A DNA stretch of 64,000 nt from Candidatus Magnetobacterium casense (GTDB taxonomy: Bacteria; Nitrospirota; Thermodesulfovibrionia; Thermodesulfovibrionales; Magnetobacteriaceae). Under the pieces are notes generated by a model. The model was given only the letters and a program-made list of their open reading frames with translations. It made no database searches and was not told the DNA's origin. A program made the position numbers and the translations under genes. Of the stretch, positions 6,825-19,143 are shown piece by piece; position 1 is the stretch's first letter; each line of letters begins with the position of its first letter. The stretch spans positions 1 through 64,000 of the forward strand of contig NZ_JMFO01000007.1 of the NCBI RefSeq assembly GCF_000714715.1. Direction: 5' to 3'.

Positions 6825-7457
6825 TTACCTATAACGTCTTCTTTCACGTAATTTATTATATATTGCCTTGAGCATATTTTCCCTTATAGGTTCACCTTTG
6901 ATTTCTAAATAGTTTGCCTCGCATAAGCGTTGTAAATCTTCATCTGAGCAGCGTTCGACTTCGATTTTTACCTCTTTTTCTTTCGCCTCTTCTTCTTTTT
7001 TTTCCTCTCCAGATGCCCATATTCGTGACAGTTCATTGAATTTACTCTGTAGTTTTTCTCTATCTCCAGATGAAAGTTCAATAGTCTGCGTTGGTTGTGA
7101 TTTTTGTTTTGAAAGTTCGTTTAAGTTTGATGTAATAAGACTTATAAGTTCTTCTTTCGACGGTCTTGTTTTTGTTTTTAATCCACTTCCAGTGCATAGC
7201 TTTTTTAAAGTTGGTATAGTGTGAGTTCTAATTTCTTGTTCAACTTCATCCTTTTTTCCAATATTCCAATCTTCTAGTAACTTATCCATTGTAGAAAGAG
7301 GTAGAGGTTCTTTTTTCGGCTTATTGTCTTTTATATCAGCAATAGCCTTGTCTATTTTAGATAGATGTTCTTCCAGATTTTTTATTGAGTTGTTTATATC
7401 TTTTAAGGCTTTTATAATATCGAGGTTAGTCAGCTTATCCTTATCTTGATGTATCAA
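6825..7457 (-). CDS. ParA-linked coiled-coil protein with a duplicated SAP-like motif
   Basis: 210 residues, lysine/glutamate rich, no family that I can name. Residues 10-50 look like a coiled coil (IKALKDINNSIKNLEEHL). Two segments resemble each other: 83-108 (LKKLCTGSGLKTKTRPSKEE) and 174-203 (LQRLCEANYLEIKGEP then MLKAIYNKL), both following the pattern LxxLC...L..K..P..E. This resembles SAP or Rho-N type helix-extended-helix nucleic-acid binding motifs. An acidic linker (EEKKEEEAKEKE) separates them. The TTG start at 7457 has GGAGG 7 nt upstream. It lies 19 nt behind the ParA gene, so the two should be co-transcribed; a DNA-binding adaptor for ParA is my inference. Composition is AT-rich compared with its neighbours, suggesting transfer. 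Confidence 0.75.
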   Translation of the reverse strand: MIHQDKDKLTNLDIIKALKDINNSIKNLEEHLSKIDKAIADIKDNKPKKEPLPLSTMDKLLEDWNIGKKDEVEQEIRTHTIPTLKKLCTGSGLKTKTRPSKEELISLITSNLNELSKQKSQPTQTIELSSGDREKLQSKFNELSRIWASGEEKKEEEAKEKEVKIEVERCSDEDLQRLCEANYLEIKGEPIRENMLKAIYNKLRERRRYR

Positions 7458-7476
7458 TGTTATTCCTCCGTGTTAT

Positions 7477-8364
7477 CTAAAAACTAAGTTCGTCACAAAT
7501 TTTATTTAGCTGTTCTCTGACATCATAGGGCAAATCATTCCTGAAAACCCTTTTAATTGAGACACTATCTCGTAGAAAATTATCTAAACATTCAATGATA
7601 AATGTATTATTATTTGAATATTCCACTGCTTTGCTTTTTGCGTCTAAGAAATAACTATTAGTCTCTTTGGTAAAAGAGCTACCTTTTGCAAGTTGTGCCT
7701 TGTTCATTAAGACGTAAATCTTCGGAAAAACGCTATGTTCAAAGATTCCATGATTTCTTAACTCCCATAGTACATCCTTTAAAAGTAAGCCAAGTCCATT
7801 GATGGCGAAAAAATCAGGATTTATTGGTATTATAAGCGTATCAACACATTGCAGTACAGAGAAACTCAAGATACTTAATGACGGTGGACAATCAAACAAA
7901 ATATAATCATAGGGTGTTAATTTTTCCGACTTTTCAATCTTGTTGATTAATTGTGTTATAAACTCTCGGGAGTGTCTGATTATATTAGGGTCTATGATAC
8001 GGACTATCTCATGGTAGTATAAGCCCTCTACGGCAGGCACAAAATGCAGACTGTTTGATAGTTCAGTGTATATAAAACCATTATCTACATCAAAATCGAA
8101 ACGCCTATTTCCATCTACGAATTTTTCCCACGCGTTGCTAATGGTCATATTTTTTTGGCGACAGGCTTTTTGCCAATACCTGAAGTGAGCATCAATTGCG
8201 CCCTCCTCATCACTAGTCAGGGCTTGTGTCAGAGACATCTGGGCGTCGATGTCAAAGAGCAAGACCCGCTTCTTCAGGGCCTGGGAGACGTACTTTCCCA
8301 ACAACCATGTAATCGTGGTCTTACCGACACCACCCTTAAAGTTTATTATGGCTATCTTACGCAT
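7477..8364 (-). CDS. ParA/MinD-type P-loop ATPase
   Basis: 295 residues. The deviant Walker A motif FKGGVGKTT (residues 9-17, signature Lys at 10) and FDCPPSLSILSFSVLQ (Walker B region) place it in the ParA family; IPINPDFFAINGLGLLL is the usual third conserved block. Such ATPases position plasmids, chromosomes or protein complexes by dimerising on DNA in an ATP-dependent way. The N-terminus starts directly with the P-loop strand, so there is no HTH extension as in plasmid type Ia ParA. No ParB gene is adjacent; the next gene encodes a coiled-coil protein with duplicated SAP-like motifs instead. The region is AT-rich and probably acquired. It is unlikely to be the chromosomal parA, which normally sits beside parB and gidB. 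Confidence 0.9.
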   Translation of the reverse strand: MRKIAIINFKGGVGKTTITWLLGKYVSQALKKRVLLFDIDAQMSLTQALTSDEEGAIDAHFRYWQKACRQKNMTISNAWEKFVDGNRRFDFDVDNGFIYTELSNSLHFVPAVEGLYYHEIVRIIDPNIIRHSREFITQLINKIEKSEKLTPYDYILFDCPPSLSILSFSVLQCVDTLIIPINPDFFAINGLGLLLKDVLWELRNHGIFEHSVFPKIYVLMNKAQLAKGSSFTKETNSYFLDAKSKAVEYSNNNTFIIECLDNFLRDSVSIKRVFRNDLPYDVREQLNKICDELSF

Positions 8365-8452: not shown

Positions 8453-9001
8453 TCAAAGCCGGTATACACTGAGCATTGTATCGCCGTATCTGTACGATCG
8501 TTTAAGCGTAAGCCTCTCCGATATCTCAGACATGGAGCGCCTTGAGGGGTGTTCGACAATCACTACAGCGTCTTTTTTCAGTACACTGCCGGTGCCTATG
8601 AGGGGGAGGGTGATATCGATCTCATCGCTGTTATATGGGGGGTCAACGTAGACTACGTCAAAGGTCTCCGAGTGGATTGCAAATTTCTTTAGCGCCTCTG
8701 CGGCAGGTGCCACAATTGCCTGATTGTTTGGGGTGGAGCAGAACGGCGGATATCTCTTTATGTTGTCTATGGCTGCGGGGTCTTTATCGACGAAGCAGAC
8801 CCATGCGGCACCCCTGCTGAGGGCCTCAAACCCCACCGCCCCACTGCCGGCATACAGGTCCAGGAAGGCCGCACCCACAATCCCCTCACGGAGGATGTTA
8901 AATAGCGCCTGACGTACCTTTGCACCGGTGGGGCGGACTCCCTTACCCGCCCCTGCAGAGGCAAGCATCCTGCCCTTTGAGCTACCACCTGTGATCCTCA
9001 T
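8453..9001 (-). CDS. rsmD: 16S rRNA (guanine966-N2)-methyltransferase RsmD
   Basis: About 182 residues from ATG 9001. It begins MRITGGSSKGRML, the standard RsmD start, followed by RPTGAKVRQALFNIL, the SAM-binding motif FLDLYAGSGAVGFEALSRG and the catalytic motif VYVDPPYN for N2 methylation of G966 in 16S rRNA. An upstream GTG at 9031 would add ten residues (TEQVLHARG), but neither start has a clear Shine-Dalgarno sequence and the shorter one fits the family. It is last in a minus-strand run behind the YbjN gene, separated by about 80 nt. The common partner coaD is absent. Confidence 0.93.
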   Translation of the reverse strand: MRITGGSSKGRMLASAGAGKGVRPTGAKVRQALFNILREGIVGAAFLDLYAGSGAVGFEALSRGAAWVCFVDKDPAAIDNIKRYPPFCSTPNNQAIVAPAAEALKKFAIHSETFDVVYVDPPYNSDEIDITLPLIGTGSVLKKDAVVIVEHPSRRSMSEISERLTLKRSYRYGDTMLSVYRL

Positions 9002-9080
9002 GCCCCGCGCATGTAAGACTTGCTCTGTCACCTAAGACATCAGGGGATTTCCTGCTGCCTGGTAGTTATTACTTATTGTG

Positions 9081-9548
9081 CTAATACGGGTCATGCTCCG
9101 TAAAAATCCGCGCACCAAACTCATCCGCAAACTCATTGTCGTACTTGTCCGCAAAATACGACAGCGTATCCAGATTAAACTCAAGTTCCTCAATGTCCAG
9201 ACCCTCTATAGGACGCCTGTTTACCAGATAAATGATATCGTTAACGACGGCAAATGCACAGTTGTTTGTATACATATTCAGCTCAAGGCATCGCCTGTAA
9301 ATGGCAACTATCCTGTTGTCAGGCAAAAACACGACAGGAGATTCTATGCTGATAACCGTGATGTCCTCAACGATAAACAAACGAATAAATATCACCGCAC
9401 TGCCCCTGGAAATAACCCAGTAGGGGTGCCTGGTCAGATTGTCCTTGTAGCGTGAATTTGCCACATTAATCCCCTTGCCTTCAAGGAGCGTATCTACCAT
9501 GGAGATTACTTCATCAATAGTTCTTTCTGATTTCTTCTTTTTACTCAT
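9081..9548 (-). CDS. YbjN-domain protein
   Basis: 155 residues. The stretch WVISRGSAVIFIRLFIVED, then VISIESPVVFLP and IYRRCLELNMYTNNCAFAVV, matches the YbjN / type III secretion chaperone-like fold: a central sheet plus the helix LEELEFNLDTL-like segment near the end. YbjN proteins are peptide-binding or stress-related cytosolic proteins of poorly known function. ATG 9548 is preceded by GAGGA at suitable spacing. The gene starts 27 nt after the TerD-protease gene and should be its operon partner. No signal peptide or membrane segment is present. Functional coupling to the protease is inference from spacing only. Confidence 0.8.
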   Translation of the reverse strand: MSKKKKSERTIDEVISMVDTLLEGKGINVANSRYKDNLTRHPYWVISRGSAVIFIRLFIVEDITVISIESPVVFLPDNRIVAIYRRCLELNMYTNNCAFAVVNDIIYLVNRRPIEGLDIEELEFNLDTLSYFADKYDNEFADEFGARIFTEHDPY

Positions 9549-9575
9549 TCTTGTATCCTCGTCAGCGGCTTACGG

Positions 9576-10808
9576 TTAATCCTTTTTTATCACGGCACCA
9601 CAGAATTCACAGTAATCATTGTATGAGGTCAGCTTGCCGCAGATGTGGCAGTAGTATTTTTCACGCATACTTCCGATGAGACCTCTGACCCTTTTAATCT
9701 TCTCCTGAAGTATATCGGCAGGAATGGCGAAATTAAGACCCTGCATACCTCTTATGCCACTGGTATTTACACCGATCGCCTCGCCATAGTCATTAAACAG
9801 GGGACCTCCGCTGTTGCCAGGATTTATGGCCACATTGGTTTGAATATATCTTCTGCTGTTTATCTGCCGGTTTATATCGCTGATCAGGCCATCAGTAAAG
9901 GTAAAACTAAGCCCCGCAGGATTGCCAATGGCATAGACCCTGTCACCTACCTCCAGCTTGTGTCTGTACAACTGAGCCATCGTAACCGTCCTGGGAGAAG
10001 CGGCGTCTATCTTGACAAACGCTATGTCTGCGTCTTTAAAGTGATATATCACCTTACCTCTGAACTCTTTTTTATTGTACAGTCTGACATTGACACTGAC
10101 ATTGTTTGCCACCACATGCCTGTTTGTAACAATCAGTCCATCGGGGGCCACAAAGAATCCGCTGCCACTGCCGTCACTTGTCTCAATCAACACAACGGCA
10201 TCCACCACCTGGTTAAAGATTTCCTTAGGGGCCAGGGGATGGTGTTGTGGTTGCCCGGAGGCGGCATCAGTGCCGGCGGTATCGATATCAATATCGGGGG
10301 CATAGAACTTGAGTATTTCGCTGAACCCCCCGGAAAAACCCTGTCCCATGGCACTGAATCTCCATTCATCCGTGAAGTAGAGTTCACATGTAATTATCGA
10401 CCGCTCCGAGGAGAAATCACTGCCGGGATACTCATACGAAAGCAGTGTCCCCACGGATGACAATACCTGCGTATAGGCGCCAGACAACTGAGACATCAGA
10501 TCATTACCATCAATGGTTTGTACAAATATGAGCTTCCTTACGTCCTTTGACAACCTTTTAAACGAAACGGAGAAGTCCTTATAGCCGGCGTTGGCATTGT
10601 CAAATCTGATACCCTTACAAGGAGATTCCATCTGATTGTAGAATATGAAGTATTTTTCATTTAACAGCTTTTCGTGTGCATCCAGAGCCAGACAACAGAC
10701 ATCGAAAAAGAGCCTGCAGTTGCTACCCCAACCTATTCTGACTGTAACGTTGTCGTCGGTTGTCACGGTTGACAGCTTTAATCTCTGACCTCTGCTGACG
10801 GATTTCAT
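9576..10808 (-). CDS. TerD domain - trypsin-like serine protease - zinc ribbon fusion
   Basis: 410 residues with three parts. Residues 5-170 match TerD: RGQRLKL, VRIGWGSN, YFIFYNQMESPCKGIRF, RKLIFVQTIDGNDLMSQ and WRFSAMGQGFSGG. Part of the TerD calcium motif (FDLDA in the family) has become FFDVCCLAL. Residues about 195-380 form an HtrA/trypsin-like protease with a complete triad: His in VTNRHVVAN, Asp in FKDADIAFVKID, Ser in NPGNSGGPL. A C-terminal ribbon has CHIC and CEFC (residues near 388-404). There is no signal peptide, so the protease should be cytosolic, unlike DegP/DegQ, and it lacks PDZ domains. ATG 10808 is chosen because AGGAGG is 5 nt upstream; the ATG one codon earlier is too close. 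It is followed 27 nt later by the YbjN gene. TerD links it to tellurite/phage/chemical stress; substrate unknown. Confidence 0.92.
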   Translation of the reverse strand: MKSVSRGQRLKLSTVTTDDNVTVRIGWGSNCRLFFDVCCLALDAHEKLLNEKYFIFYNQMESPCKGIRFDNANAGYKDFSVSFKRLSKDVRKLIFVQTIDGNDLMSQLSGAYTQVLSSVGTLLSYEYPGSDFSSERSIITCELYFTDEWRFSAMGQGFSGGFSEILKFYAPDIDIDTAGTDAASGQPQHHPLAPKEIFNQVVDAVVLIETSDGSGSGFFVAPDGLIVTNRHVVANNVSVNVRLYNKKEFRGKVIYHFKDADIAFVKIDAASPRTVTMAQLYRHKLEVGDRVYAIGNPAGLSFTFTDGLISDINRQINSRRYIQTNVAINPGNSGGPLFNDYGEAIGVNTSGIRGMQGLNFAIPADILQEKIKRVRGLIGSMREKYYCHICGKLTSYNDYCEFCGAVIKKD

Positions 10809-10864
10809 CATAGCCTCCTAAATGCTGTGCTAAAATAGCTTACCCATGTTTACAACCCCAGGCT

Positions 10865-11614
10865 TTATGTCGGTATGGTATCAACGGAGGCGAAGCTGGG
10901 TTCGTGCAGGGGCAGCAGGATGTCGGCCATATCCCTGATTTGGACCATGATGTCGTATGCCTCATAGACGTTTACGTGGGTACCCGTGGGGATCACCTCC
11001 ATGTCCATGCCCCTGATGGTGGGCGGTGGATTGAAGTTTTCCATAATGCAGCAAAAGCCCGTGATGATGGCCTTACCACTGTTTGTCTGCACCTCGATGC
11101 TCATCCCGCCTTCGGTGTGTACGGGCGTGTGTATGGCGACAATGCCGCTGACTATCTCCTTATCGACGTACATAGGCTTGAGTTGCCCCCTCTGCTCCAC
11201 CTCCAGGATGTAGTCCTCCATGTACCGGAAGTCCAGGGGGTGGGGGTTGTGTATGCGTTGTATCTCTTCTGCGTGTACGTAGATGTCGGCGTTGACGCAT
11301 TTTTCGTCGTTTTCGCAGTGGTCGTTGTGCAGGTGCGTGTGGATGACTATGTCAATGTCCTCCGGGACAAGGTTGTACTTGGCAAGGCCCTCCTCAAACG
11401 TGTATATTCTGCCACCTATGGCCTTTTCTGCCGCCTGGGAGCGCGCAGGGGCCAACTCCCCCGTATCAACAAGTATCTTAGGCCCATCACCCTCCAGATA
11501 CCAACTGTAGATCGGTATCGTAAACACCTGACCATAGCCATACTGGTAGGTCATCATCGTCTTGTCAAACACCTTCATCCCCATCACTATGGGGTGTATC
11601 TTATAAACGCCCAT
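10865..11614 (-). CDS. Metallo-beta-lactamase-fold hydrolase, lactonase-like
   Basis: 249 residues with IHTHLHNDHCEN (His94, His96, Asp98, His99), the zinc site of the MBL fold, then IHTPVHTEGG and a late PLHEPSF. The arrangement YSWYLEGDGPKILVDTGE and the spacing of the HxHxDH motif resemble AHL-lactonase (AiiA/AttM-like) and related hydrolases. The bridging aspartate that normally follows the second strand region (ID-AS-Y in AiiA) appears as GFCC (KAIITGFCCIMENF), so the second metal site may be altered. GGAGG lies 12 nt before ATG 11614, slightly long. It is 56 nt upstream of the TerD fusion gene on the same strand. Quorum quenching is only one possibility; substrate cannot be read from sequence. 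Confidence 0.85.
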   Translation of the reverse strand: MGVYKIHPIVMGMKVFDKTMMTYQYGYGQVFTIPIYSWYLEGDGPKILVDTGELAPARSQAAEKAIGGRIYTFEEGLAKYNLVPEDIDIVIHTHLHNDHCENDEKCVNADIYVHAEEIQRIHNPHPLDFRYMEDYILEVEQRGQLKPMYVDKEIVSGIVAIHTPVHTEGGMSIEVQTNSGKAIITGFCCIMENFNPPPTIRGMDMEVIPTGTHVNVYEAYDIMVQIRDMADILLPLHEPSFASVDTIPT

Positions 11615-15179: not shown

Positions 15180-15710
15180 ATGGAAACACAGACATTAGAG
15201 AGAGACCTTGACTTGACTGAGATCATCAATGGGGTGGAAGTTATGGGGCCTAGTCCGTTTGGAAAGCATCAGGATGTTAGCAGTAATCTATACGACCTTA
15301 TACGTCAGCACATAAAAAAGACTAAAACAGGTAAGGTTTTTTATTCCCCGCTTGACGTTATCCTCAAAGAAGGTGAACAAAGATTACAGCCTGATATCTT
15401 GTTTATCAGAAAAGAGAATATAGATATCTTTCAAGACTGGATACGGGGTGTGCCCGATATGGTTTGTGAGATAGTCTCTAAGGGGTCAGTTACTAAAGAC
15501 ACTGTTACCAAGAAAAAAATATATGAACGCTATAAAGTGCCTGAGTTTTGGATAGTCCTTCCTGAATTTGAGACCATTGAAGTATTTATTATCGAAGGGG
15601 GCGTATACGAGCTTTTTTCCACATCAGAGGGAGAGGTGATCGTCAAGTCCAAGGTCATTGAAGGGCTGGAGATAGACATTAAGGACGTGTTTGGTGACTT
15701 CTCTTTTTAG
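15180..15710 (+). CDS. Uma2-family (DUF820) PD-(D/E)XK protein
   Basis: 176 residues. The nuclease-like core shows GPSPFGKHQDVSSNLYDLI, LQPDILFIRKENID, VCEIVSKGSVTKDTVTKKK and YERYKVPEFWIV, the standard Uma2 pattern with PD and ExxS...D...K..Y. Many Uma2 genes occur in multiple copies and in mobile neighbourhoods; their biological role is unclear. The gene precedes a type IIG-like enzyme by 43 nt. No Shine-Dalgarno sequence is visible; a possible -10 (TACACT, 15166-15171) ends 8 nt before the ATG, so a leaderless transcript is possible. Confidence 0.9.
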   Translation: METQTLERDLDLTEIINGVEVMGPSPFGKHQDVSSNLYDLIRQHIKKTKTGKVFYSPLDVILKEGEQRLQPDILFIRKENIDIFQDWIRGVPDMVCEIVSKGSVTKDTVTKKKIYERYKVPEFWIVLPEFETIEVFIIEGGVYELFSTSEGEVIVKSKVIEGLEIDIKDVFGDFSF

Positions 15711-15753
15711 GGATAGAGGATATTTTACCGGATGAGCCAACCTTTGGCTCTAT

Positions 15754-18700
15754 ATGGCAGACTTTAAATCCAACGAACGTGAGTTCACCGGGCAGGTCGT
15801 ATTGTGGCTCAACGAGTCATTAGGGGAGGAGGGATATCCCTTTGAGGTGGTCTCATCGGAGGCCTCTTTGAGGGACGCGGAGGACAGTACGCTGTTTCCC
15901 GATGTCATTGTATGGCTAAACAGGCAGTCCCAACAGGGCTTTTGCGGCTGGGAGTTAAAGACCCCCTCCACGGCAGTTGATGACCGGGAGCTGCTTGAAA
16001 ATGCCGCACGGAAGGCCAGGGCAATCCACGCCGATTACTTTGTTACGTGGAACATGGTTGAGGCCATCATCTGGAGAACCCCTCTGTACCCCGATCAAAT
16101 GAGCAGGGAGCACAGGTTAAAGACCTACGCCCCGATAACCGTGGTAACAACACCCGACGACCTCTGGGTGGAATCCAAAAGGCTGCTTCTGAGGGCAAAG
16201 GCGAAGGAGATATTAAACGACCTTGCAACCCTTAGCAGGGAAGGACATCTCCACCTGATTGACGTTGACTCCACATACTTTGTCTACGAACTCTCCAAGG
16301 CCGTAGAGACCCTCAGACCACTCATGCACCGGTCATTGATAACGGAGCTCGGCAAGAGTACCGCCTTCAGGGAAGGGCTCTTTGATTGGGCGGTTAAACA
16401 GGGCATTGCCGCATATGATGCGGGGGATGTCTTTTTTGAGACCGTCTCAAGACAGATCGTATACAGACTCCTGGGAAAGATACTCTTTTATCTCACTTTG
16501 TATCGGTTTCGTTCAGATATACCCAGGTTTGACCTGCGTGCGGATGAATCAACCAGGATAGACTCCAAGCTCAGGGAATACTTTGAGATTGCAAGAAGGA
16601 TAGACTATCAGGCAGTGTTTGAAGAGGACTTTTCCGACAAGGTGCCATTTCCACAGGATGGCGCTGAAACACTGATCAACCTGGTTACAGACCTCAACCG
16701 CTACAACTTTTCGCGTATGCCCCAGGACGTGGTGGGCAATGTCTTTGAGAGACTGATACCGCCACAGGAGAGGCACACACTTGGACAGTATTTTACCAAC
16801 GAGGCCCTTGTAGACCTCATTACGGCCTTTTGCGTCCGGTCTGTGACAGACAGGGTACTGGACCCCACGTGCGGTACGGGGACATTCCTTATCAGGGCCT
16901 ACGACAGGCTCAGAAATTTTGGAGAGAGAGACCACAGAAGGTTGCTCAGTCAGATATGGGGGGTCGATATTGCGCGCTTCCCCGCCGAGCTTGCCACGAT
17001 CAATCTCTATAGGCAGAGGATCGAGGACTACACAAACTTCCCGCGCGTGATATCGAGGGACTTCTTTGAGATCAAGACCGGTGCCATATTAAGATTCCCG
17101 CCTCCGAGGCCGACTATCGGGGATGATTTTATGATTGACGAGGCCATACCGACCTTTGACGCCATCGTGGGCAACTTCCCCTACATACGGCAGGAGCTGA
17201 TTGAGAAACGGATTCCGGATTACAAGGATACCATCGGGAATGTTTTGAAGATAGAGTATCCCGAGCTGTTTAACAATGGAGGTATACGGCTTTCAGGGCA
17301 GGCGGATATCTATGCCTACCTGTTTTTCCACGCAGCAAGTCATCTCAGCAACAACGGGAGGATGGGGATTGTGACGTCCAACTCCTGGCTTGATGTTGCC
17401 TACGGGTATGAGCTTCAGAGGTTCTTTCTGAAGAGATTCAAGATAGTGGCCATTGTTGAGTCCCGTTGTGAGTCGTGGTTTGAGGACGCGGCGGTTAACA
17501 CGGTCTTTACGATCCTTCAGCGTTGTGAGAATGAGAATGACAGAAACGACAACAACGTCAAGTTCGTAAAGCTAAAGAAACGCCTCAAGGAGTTAATCCA
17601 CTGGGATATAAATAACCCTACAGACCGATGGTGGGGGCTTAACTGGCTGACACATATGATAGAGAGGGTCGGTTCTGAATACTATAAGCTCCATGAACAG
17701 AGGATTGTAAACACCCTGGAGGGACATGTTACCTTTGAAAACGATAACTTCAGTATAAGGATAATCAGACAAAAAGAGCTATCTGACGGTGTAGAAAGCT
17801 CCGGTAAGACGGTCAAGTGGGGACAGTATCTCAGGGCGCCGGGGGTTTATTTTGAAATTTTGCAGAGGTGTGCAGATAAGCTGGTAGCGTTGAAGGAAGT
17901 GGCGAATGTGACAAGGGGAATTACAACTAATAATGTTAAGTTTTTTTATTTTAAGAAGGATATTATTGATCATTGGAGTTTGGAGAAAAATTATGTTGTT
18001 GGTCCTATAATCTATACGCCAAAAGAGGTTCCAGATATTCTTATAGATACGAGTTTGTTAAAGAGGTACTTGTTTGTTTGTAACGAAGAAAGAAAAAGAT
18101 TAGCAGGTACAAGTGCACTAAAATATATTAAAGCCGGAGAACTAAAGAGGTATGACGCCTCTCTAACCTTTAAAAGTAGAGATGATTGGTATGGCATTGG
18201 TGAAATAAATGAAGAACCGTGCTGTTTGTATTATGCAAGGCAAGATGTTAGCTACAGAGTGATTTTTAATCCAGATGGCATTATCGCAAATGACAACCTT
18301 TATCGTATAACGCCACGAGACAAAGATAACAACAAGCTTCTATGTGGGGTGCTTAACTCTACGCTTTTTTATTTAGAGATAGAAATAAATGGCAGAATAA
18401 ATCTTGGTGATGGGGCATTAAAAATTCAAGTCTATGAGGTTGAAATTTTACCCATTTTAGATATTAGTAACATCTCTAATAACATGAAAGAGTCTATCCT
18501 GAAGGCATTTGAAAAGTTGATCAGTCGTCCGGTTAAGTCCATCTTTGAGGAGGTCAAACTCAGGGATAGACAGGCCCTTGACAGCGCCGTGCTCGAGGCC
18601 CTCGGACTTGACCCCAAGGTCTATCTCAAGCCCTTGTATGATGGCCTTACGGGGATGGTCAGAGAACGGATCGAGCTGGCCAAGTCACGAAAGAGGTCCA

Positions 18701-19143
18701 AACAGGCAAGGACCACACGAGATGTTGAGAGCCTTAAAGAACAGGTCATTGAAGAGGTCATCCCCTATGGCCTGAAGAGATTTCCGGAGGGGTTTGTTGA
18801 CCCCAAAGACCTTAAGGGTGTCAGGGAGATATCGGTGGACAAGGGACCCTTGAGGCTCGGTTCATACTTTATGGGGCAACAGGAGGTCGTCTCAGAGGGT
18901 GGATTCAGGTACGTTGCAGCGAGCTTGCATGAGGCCAGGTTTATTGTCTATGCCCACAGGCCGAATTCCTTTATCATAAGAATTCCAAAGGAGCCACTTG
19001 TTATAGCAAAGGCAGTTGATGACTACGAGCGATATCTGACAGACCTCAAGGCAAGGCTCTTTTCGGCGTTCCTTGTCAGGACACACGACCATAAACAGTC
19101 AGAGGCATTGGTGCAGCAAATGTTTCAGAGGCTTGGGTTATAA
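15754..19143 (+). CDS. Type IIG-like restriction enzyme/DNA adenine methyltransferase
   Basis: 1129 residues. The N-terminus holds a PD-(D/E)XK nuclease site: Pro49-Asp50 (LFPDVIVWL) and Glu67-x-Lys69 (WELKTP). A helical connector leads to the gamma-class N6-adenine methyltransferase: ERHTLGQYFTNEALVDLI, motif I DPTCGTGTFLIRAYDRL (about residue 369) and motif IV GNFPYIRQEL at 473-482, where the usual NPPY reads NFPY. Residues about 700-920 correspond to the target recognition domain; this DNA (about 17900-18500) is strikingly AT-rich compared with both flanks. The C-terminal part resumes normal composition. A single-chain enzyme should both cut and modify the same site. No separate specificity subunit is present. 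No Shine-Dalgarno sequence; a GAGCCAA/TTGGCTC hairpin (15735-15751) lies just before the ATG and could hide the start. Confidence 0.87.
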   Translation: MADFKSNEREFTGQVVLWLNESLGEEGYPFEVVSSEASLRDAEDSTLFPDVIVWLNRQSQQGFCGWELKTPSTAVDDRELLENAARKARAIHADYFVTWNMVEAIIWRTPLYPDQMSREHRLKTYAPITVVTTPDDLWVESKRLLLRAKAKEILNDLATLSREGHLHLIDVDSTYFVYELSKAVETLRPLMHRSLITELGKSTAFREGLFDWAVKQGIAAYDAGDVFFETVSRQIVYRLLGKILFYLTLYRFRSDIPRFDLRADESTRIDSKLREYFEIARRIDYQAVFEEDFSDKVPFPQDGAETLINLVTDLNRYNFSRMPQDVVGNVFERLIPPQERHTLGQYFTNEALVDLITAFCVRSVTDRVLDPTCGTGTFLIRAYDRLRNFGERDHRRLLSQIWGVDIARFPAELATINLYRQRIEDYTNFPRVISRDFFEIKTGAILRFPPPRPTIGDDFMIDEAIPTFDAIVGNFPYIRQELIEKRIPDYKDTIGNVLKIEYPELFNNGGIRLSGQADIYAYLFFHAASHLSNNGRMGIVTSNSWLDVAYGYELQRFFLKRFKIVAIVESRCESWFEDAAVNTVFTILQRCENENDRNDNNVKFVKLKKRLKELIHWDINNPTDRWWGLNWLTHMIERVGSEYYKLHEQRIVNTLEGHVTFENDNFSIRIIRQKELSDGVESSGKTVKWGQYLRAPGVYFEILQRCADKLVALKEVANVTRGITTNNVKFFYFKKDIIDHWSLEKNYVVGPIIYTPKEVPDILIDTSLLKRYLFVCNEERKRLAGTSALKYIKAGELKRYDASLTFKSRDDWYGIGEINEEPCCLYYARQDVSYRVIFNPDGIIANDNLYRITPRDKDNNKLLCGVLNSTLFYLEIEINGRINLGDGALKIQVYEVEILPILDISNISNNMKESILKAFEKLISRPVKSIFEEVKLRDRQALDSAVLEALGLDPKVYLKPLYDGLTGMVRERIELAKSRKRSKQARTTRDVESLKEQVIEEVIPYGLKRFPEGFVDPKDLKGVREISVDKGPLRLGSYFMGQQEVVSEGGFRYVAASLHEARFIVYAHRPNSFIIRIPKEPLVIAKAVDDYERYLTDLKARLFSAFLVRTHDHKQSEALVQQMFQRLGL

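Follow-up and report, generated by a model that had tools for sequence, protein, structure and literature searches.

Ter systems are presented in PMC7824862 as signal, sensor and membrane-response modules directed against phages and xenobiotics. In Kaur et al. (2020, PMC7159879), the vWA-MoxR ternary systems and other NTP-dependent conflict systems also use trypsins and TerD, the former counted among the effectors and the latter among the nucleotide-binding domains. TY-Chap1 is predicted in PMC9503650 to be a chaperone that binds peptides and belongs to ADP-ribose-linked immune systems. A pair consisting of a TerD-protease and a TY-Chap1 protein is not described in the available portions of these three papers; the main Ter survey (Anantharaman et al. 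2012) lay outside the comparison.

The present study describes a two-gene cassette of a Nitrospirota bacterium, in which known parts are unusually rearranged. With the TerD-vWA (TerF-type) proteins of ter operons, its fusion protein shares the TerD subfamily and the position of TerD N-terminal to an output domain; in those proteins the output is a vWA domain inside the ter operon, whereas the fusion carries an HtrA-type protease and a ribbon and is encoded outside the operon. The protease domain and its catalytic motifs resemble those of DegP/HhoA/HtrA, but the fusion is without signal peptide or PDZ domain and has TerD in front and the ribbon behind. The partner passes the cut-off for TY-Chap1, a member of the TY-Chap1/YbjN/CesT group whose context in the available literature is ADP-ribose-linked immunity and not TerD proteases. 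Unlike the NTP-dependent conflict systems, the cassette has no MoxR, VMAP, iSTAND or GTPase among the adjoining genes tested.

Results

The following features were assigned in the window, which denotes the whole stretch of 64,000 nucleotides that was analysed.

9081 to 10811, minus strand: two-gene cassette, recognised by GC composition, an empty site in the sister species G001 and G002, and a partial copy in G003
9576 to 10811, minus strand: TerD-trypsin-CxxC fusion ORF, 411 aa, ATG start, AGGAGG upstream
10296 to 10811, minus strand: TerD domain, residues 1–172 (Pfam PF02342, AlphaFold2, Foldseek, alignments)
9684 to 10241, minus strand: HtrA/DegP-type trypsin domain, about residues 191–376 (Pfam Trypsin_2, NCBIfam DegP/HhoA, solved HtrA chains, motifs)
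9576 to 9665, minus strand: CxxC-x9-CxxC tail, residues 383–411 plus stop, a probable zinc ribbon (motif, sub-threshold Zn-ribbon matches)
9081 to 9548, minus strand: TY-Chap1 (YbjN/CesT-like chaperone) protein, 155 aa (PF22551), 27 nt downstream of the fusion
10865 to 11614, minus strand: flanking metallo-beta-lactamase-fold hydrolase (PF00753; 81–83% identical in the sisters)
8453 to 9031, minus strand: flanking RsmD-type 16S rRNA methyltransferase (PF03602, E 8e-48; 64–74% identical in the sisters)

Pfam assigned residues 1–170 of the fusion to TerD (PF02342; E 1.9e-28; 99.6 bits, cut-off 25.3) and residues 216–348 to Trypsin_2 (E 1.9e-32), with the catalytic triad intact in HtrA motifs, namely His232 in TNRHVV, Asp262 in DADIAF and Ser334 in GNSGGP. 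The best sequence match to solved HtrA proteases reached E 7e-30, and the protease domain was about 42–50% identical to the best HtrA matches; in NCBIfam, DegP/HhoA was closest, with every HtrA model far under its own cut-off. The tail holds the cysteine pairs 388/391 and 401/404, on which the Pfam ribbon models gave best E values of about 0.01–0.02, under the cut-off; the ribbon is assigned by motif only. The Pfam search detected no PDZ domain in the fusion, and no signal- or TM-like hydrophobic segment was found in it (maximum 19-residue Kyte-Doolittle mean, 0.94). These data bear out the preliminary description, which had combined a TerD domain, an HtrA-like protease with an intact triad and a two-CxxC tail in one protein lacking signal peptide and PDZ domain. 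A magnetosome protease was considered as an identity and rejected: the MamE/MamO matches were weak, and the DegP/HhoA models scored far better.

In the AlphaFold2 model, built on a 24-row alignment, the TerD half (residues 1–170) was mostly above a pLDDT of 89 and matched the solved TerD structures 3ibz and 2kxt in Foldseek; the TerD fold expected from the letters alone was thus recovered by structure prediction. The protease half was modelled poorly because few alignment rows cover it. The acidic loop of canonical TerD (GDNxTGxGxGDDE-type) binds calcium, as is also indicated by the title of 2kxt. In the alignments this loop is absent from the fusion, where DNANAGYKDF stands in its place, and metal sensing by the fusion TerD is therefore doubtful, judging from its sequence.

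The partner passes the Pfam cut-off for TY-Chap1 (PF22551; E 4.5e-8, 33.2 bits, cut-off 27), and its score for YbjN itself is under the cut-off (PF10722; 19.3 bits, cut-off 22); the YbjN-type gene previously noted 27 nt after the fusion stands in this form. Its solved relative is 2plg (E 8e-9). A single-sequence model of low confidence (pLDDT 47.5) has helix, strands and helices in order, and a fold search with it gave no significant match. Within the class, TY-Chap1 occurs in the window genome (G000) and G003 only, and searches of plasmids and viral contigs gave no relatives. When the genomes behind five TerD-fusion loci were examined, TY-Chap1 came up once (G231), at another site, amid glycosyltransferase-like genes.

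In the sister species G001 and G002, the metallo-beta-lactamase gene adjoins rsmD, the matches being 74 and 120 bp apart, and in the window the same flanks are parted by exactly the fusion and TY-Chap1 genes. G003, a third relative whose genome is 56% complete, has a contig that starts inside the TY-Chap1 gene and runs into rsmD; the last 20 TY-Chap1 residues are 95% identical to those of the window and the adjacent RsmD just 70%, 20 residues being little for such a comparison. The cassette, or at least its TY-Chap1 gene, is common to the window genome and G003, and the two genes are gained or lost as one unit within the genus, a single complete copy being known among four genus genomes. The cassette has a GC of 0.46 and a GC3 of about 0.53, as against 0.53–0.55 and 0.61–0.73 in the flanking genes, which is in keeping with acquisition; alternatively, the cassette may have been lost in the sisters. 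No Rfam family or tRNA was detected near the site, and promoter and terminator scans remained at chance level. No second example of the full TerD-trypsin-ribbon architecture was found in 231 class genomes or in two other groups, of 297 and 301 genomes; plasmids, phages and viral contigs, queried with the TerD half, gave no second full architecture either, and no relative came up in the viral contigs.

Two other gene groups were observed in the neighbourhood. Just after rsmD (window 6825–8364, minus strand) lie a ParA-like ATPase (7477–8364), which matches the phage/plasmid partition family phrog_164, and a protein of 210 aa that no Pfam model matches (6825–7457); this patch has a very low GC of 0.355 and is absent near rsmD in the sister stretches examined. 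About 4 kb from the cassette (15180–19143, plus strand), the sequence suggests a 176-aa Uma2-like protein and a 1129-aa adenine-specific DNA methyltransferase-like protein, the latter a possible restriction-modification enzyme.

TerD is rare in the class, since only 4 of 231 genomes match with the fusion TerD as query. Its nearest relatives, at about 40% identity, are TerD domains preceding varied C-terminal domains, namely vWA-TerF in G001 and G002, HNH in L032 and L034, and AIM24 in Streptomyces (L037); the identity to the TerD of the sisters' TerD-vWA proteins is 38–41%. The ter operon of the sisters has the order TerD-vWA, AIM24, TerD, TerD, and that of the window genome consists of AIM24, TerD, TerD, without a TerD-vWA gene. 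The window genome has just three TerD genes, with the ter genes on contig C1 and the fusion on contig C7.

Some of these relatives were observed at the gene level. TerD is followed by a C-terminal HNH endonuclease at L032:1797-3830 and L034:162-1757, a nuclease counterpart of the protease fusion, and TerD and AIM24 are joined in one Streptomyces protein (L037:4956-6689), these being separate neighbouring genes in the window genus. In the window genome itself, the N-terminal half of a TerF-type vWA protein (L170:3022-4353) is not recognised as TerD by Pfam and resembles a divergent TerD by eye (GGDNEE motif). The ter operon of that genome encodes, directly after the canonical TerD, a protein of 118 aa whose CxxC motifs resemble a zinc ribbon (L131:9799-10152, minus strand).

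Nine further TerD-trypsin fusions were found, mostly in Myxococcota genomes. Three of them (L063, L096 and L097) were among the 80 loci of the TerD search; a profile of these three and the window fusion recovered eight, including L096 and L097, in 284 genomes of the L096 phylum, making nine distinct fusions with L063. We know of no name for this type. Its members resemble the window fusion in domain order, similar length, intact triad (9/9) and lack of a PDZ domain, but they have a trypsin of another lineage (GAAPGSSGGP), lack the CxxC pair of the ribbon (0/9) and mostly stand beside other TerD genes. At least seven of the nine directly adjoin another TerD-fusion gene, and no such neighbour occurred in the stretches examined for two. 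In their 1.5–5 kb flanks, no TY-Chap relative was seen by a single-sequence search, which is insensitive.

The search for the same domain order, proposed in the preliminary description, therefore succeeded for TerD-trypsin and failed for the ribbon. A regular linkage to YbjN/TY-Chap did not emerge, the linkage being seen in one genus only and in none of the examined flanks of the nine other fusions. As to whether the fusion is unique to one genome, the three-domain form with its chaperone belongs to one genus, and TerD-trypsin as such is not unique.

In the tree of protease domains, the nine other fusions formed one fully supported group, and the window protease was placed among HtrA proteases; all ten fusions were grouped in 0 of 200 bootstrap trees. 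A single group of all ten was not rejected by the AU test (p 0.126; long branches). Because the window protease differs and the tree favours a separate origin, the window fusion probably arose separately from the Myxococcota-type fusions, as far as these sequences can indicate.

Discussion

The reading that we tentatively prefer, at somewhat short of an even chance, is that the cassette encodes a serine protease acting in the cytosol under the control of the Ter stress system, which would make it an alternative Ter output. Since the joining of TerD to a trypsin recurs and the C-terminal domain is exchanged among relatives, TerD can be regarded as a module for sensing or docking, with the protease as one of its outputs. 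The earlier proposal of a protease under TerD control gains support from the recurrence of TerD-trypsin fusions inside ter clusters of the Myxococcota type.

In such a mechanism, the TerD subfamily of the fusion would be a plug-in module joining a stress-sensing TerD assembly made by the separate AIM24-TerD-TerD operon, and the C-terminal domain would be the output, TerF-type vWA in the sisters and HtrA-type protease in the window genome. The stress signal might be a metal, a nucleotide-like metabolite or membrane stress, in response to which the protease would be recruited or set free by TerD and would cut cytosolic proteins. The ribbon may help to place the protease, and TY-Chap1 may hold the substrate or restrain the enzyme. 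Against control by Ter, the fusion gene lies on another contig than the ter operon of the genome. Moreover, the vWA output was not simply replaced, as the window genome also encodes a TerF-type vWA protein whose N-terminus is of another kind.

An unlikely alternative is that a trypsin potentially toxic in the cytosol is restrained by TY-Chap1 and set free by phage or stress to cause growth arrest, with TerD as the trigger sensor of a defence or toxin-antitoxin-like pair. Such a pair would suit a two-gene cassette with a GC lower than its flanks that two of the four genus genomes have and the other two lack. Trypsins are common in conflict systems, with TerD among their nucleotide-binding domains (PMC7159879), and the definition of TY-Chap1 came from immune systems centred on ADP-ribose (PMC9503650). 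However, the PADLOC matches came from the generic trypsin domain only, mostly to much longer profiles, the cassette has no known defence gene, the toxin-like gene comes first, and no relatives of TY-Chap1 were found in the plasmids and viral contigs searched. The phage response considered in the preliminary description gains no direct support, since these PADLOC matches are generic and no relative was found in viral contigs; phage defence is possible.

General protein quality control, in which an HtrA-like protease would receive damaged proteins from a chaperone and TerD would serve only for placement at a membrane or complex, is about as unlikely as the restrained pair. The protease domain is closest to DegP/HhoA, but neither an export signal nor a PDZ domain was found in the fusion, and both are usual in the HtrA proteases of quality control. 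The patchy presence within the genus also fits housekeeping badly, although TY-Chap/YbjN proteins are regarded in PMC9503650 as probable peptide-binding, protein-stabilising chaperones. A chance fusion without lasting function, with TY-Chap1 as an unrelated neighbour that travelled along, would account for an exact architecture confined to one genus and for the absence of the ribbon from the other fusions and of the chaperone from their flanks as far as examined, but it is quite improbable in view of the intact frame, triad and TerD fold, the closer match in G003 of the TY-Chap1 end than of RsmD (little as 20 residues are), and the persistence of TerD-trypsin fusions in another phylum.

Returning to a protease controlled by the Ter system, a wider proposal would be a new class of Ter effectors in which TerD directly gates a cytosolic serine protease, having evolved at least twice and being combined in Nitrospirota with a dedicated chaperone or inhibitor in a mobile cassette that responds to stress or phage; we rate this proposal, taken as a whole, somewhat unlikely.

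The ribbon and chaperone are confined to one genus so far, and the recurrence of TerD-trypsin in another phylum makes the fusion more than a curiosity of one genome. TerD proteins are widely spread, yet their function is unclear, and a TerD fused to an enzyme with a simple readout offers a direct way to probe it. Should TerD control the protease, the activity of the enzyme would report what TerD senses.
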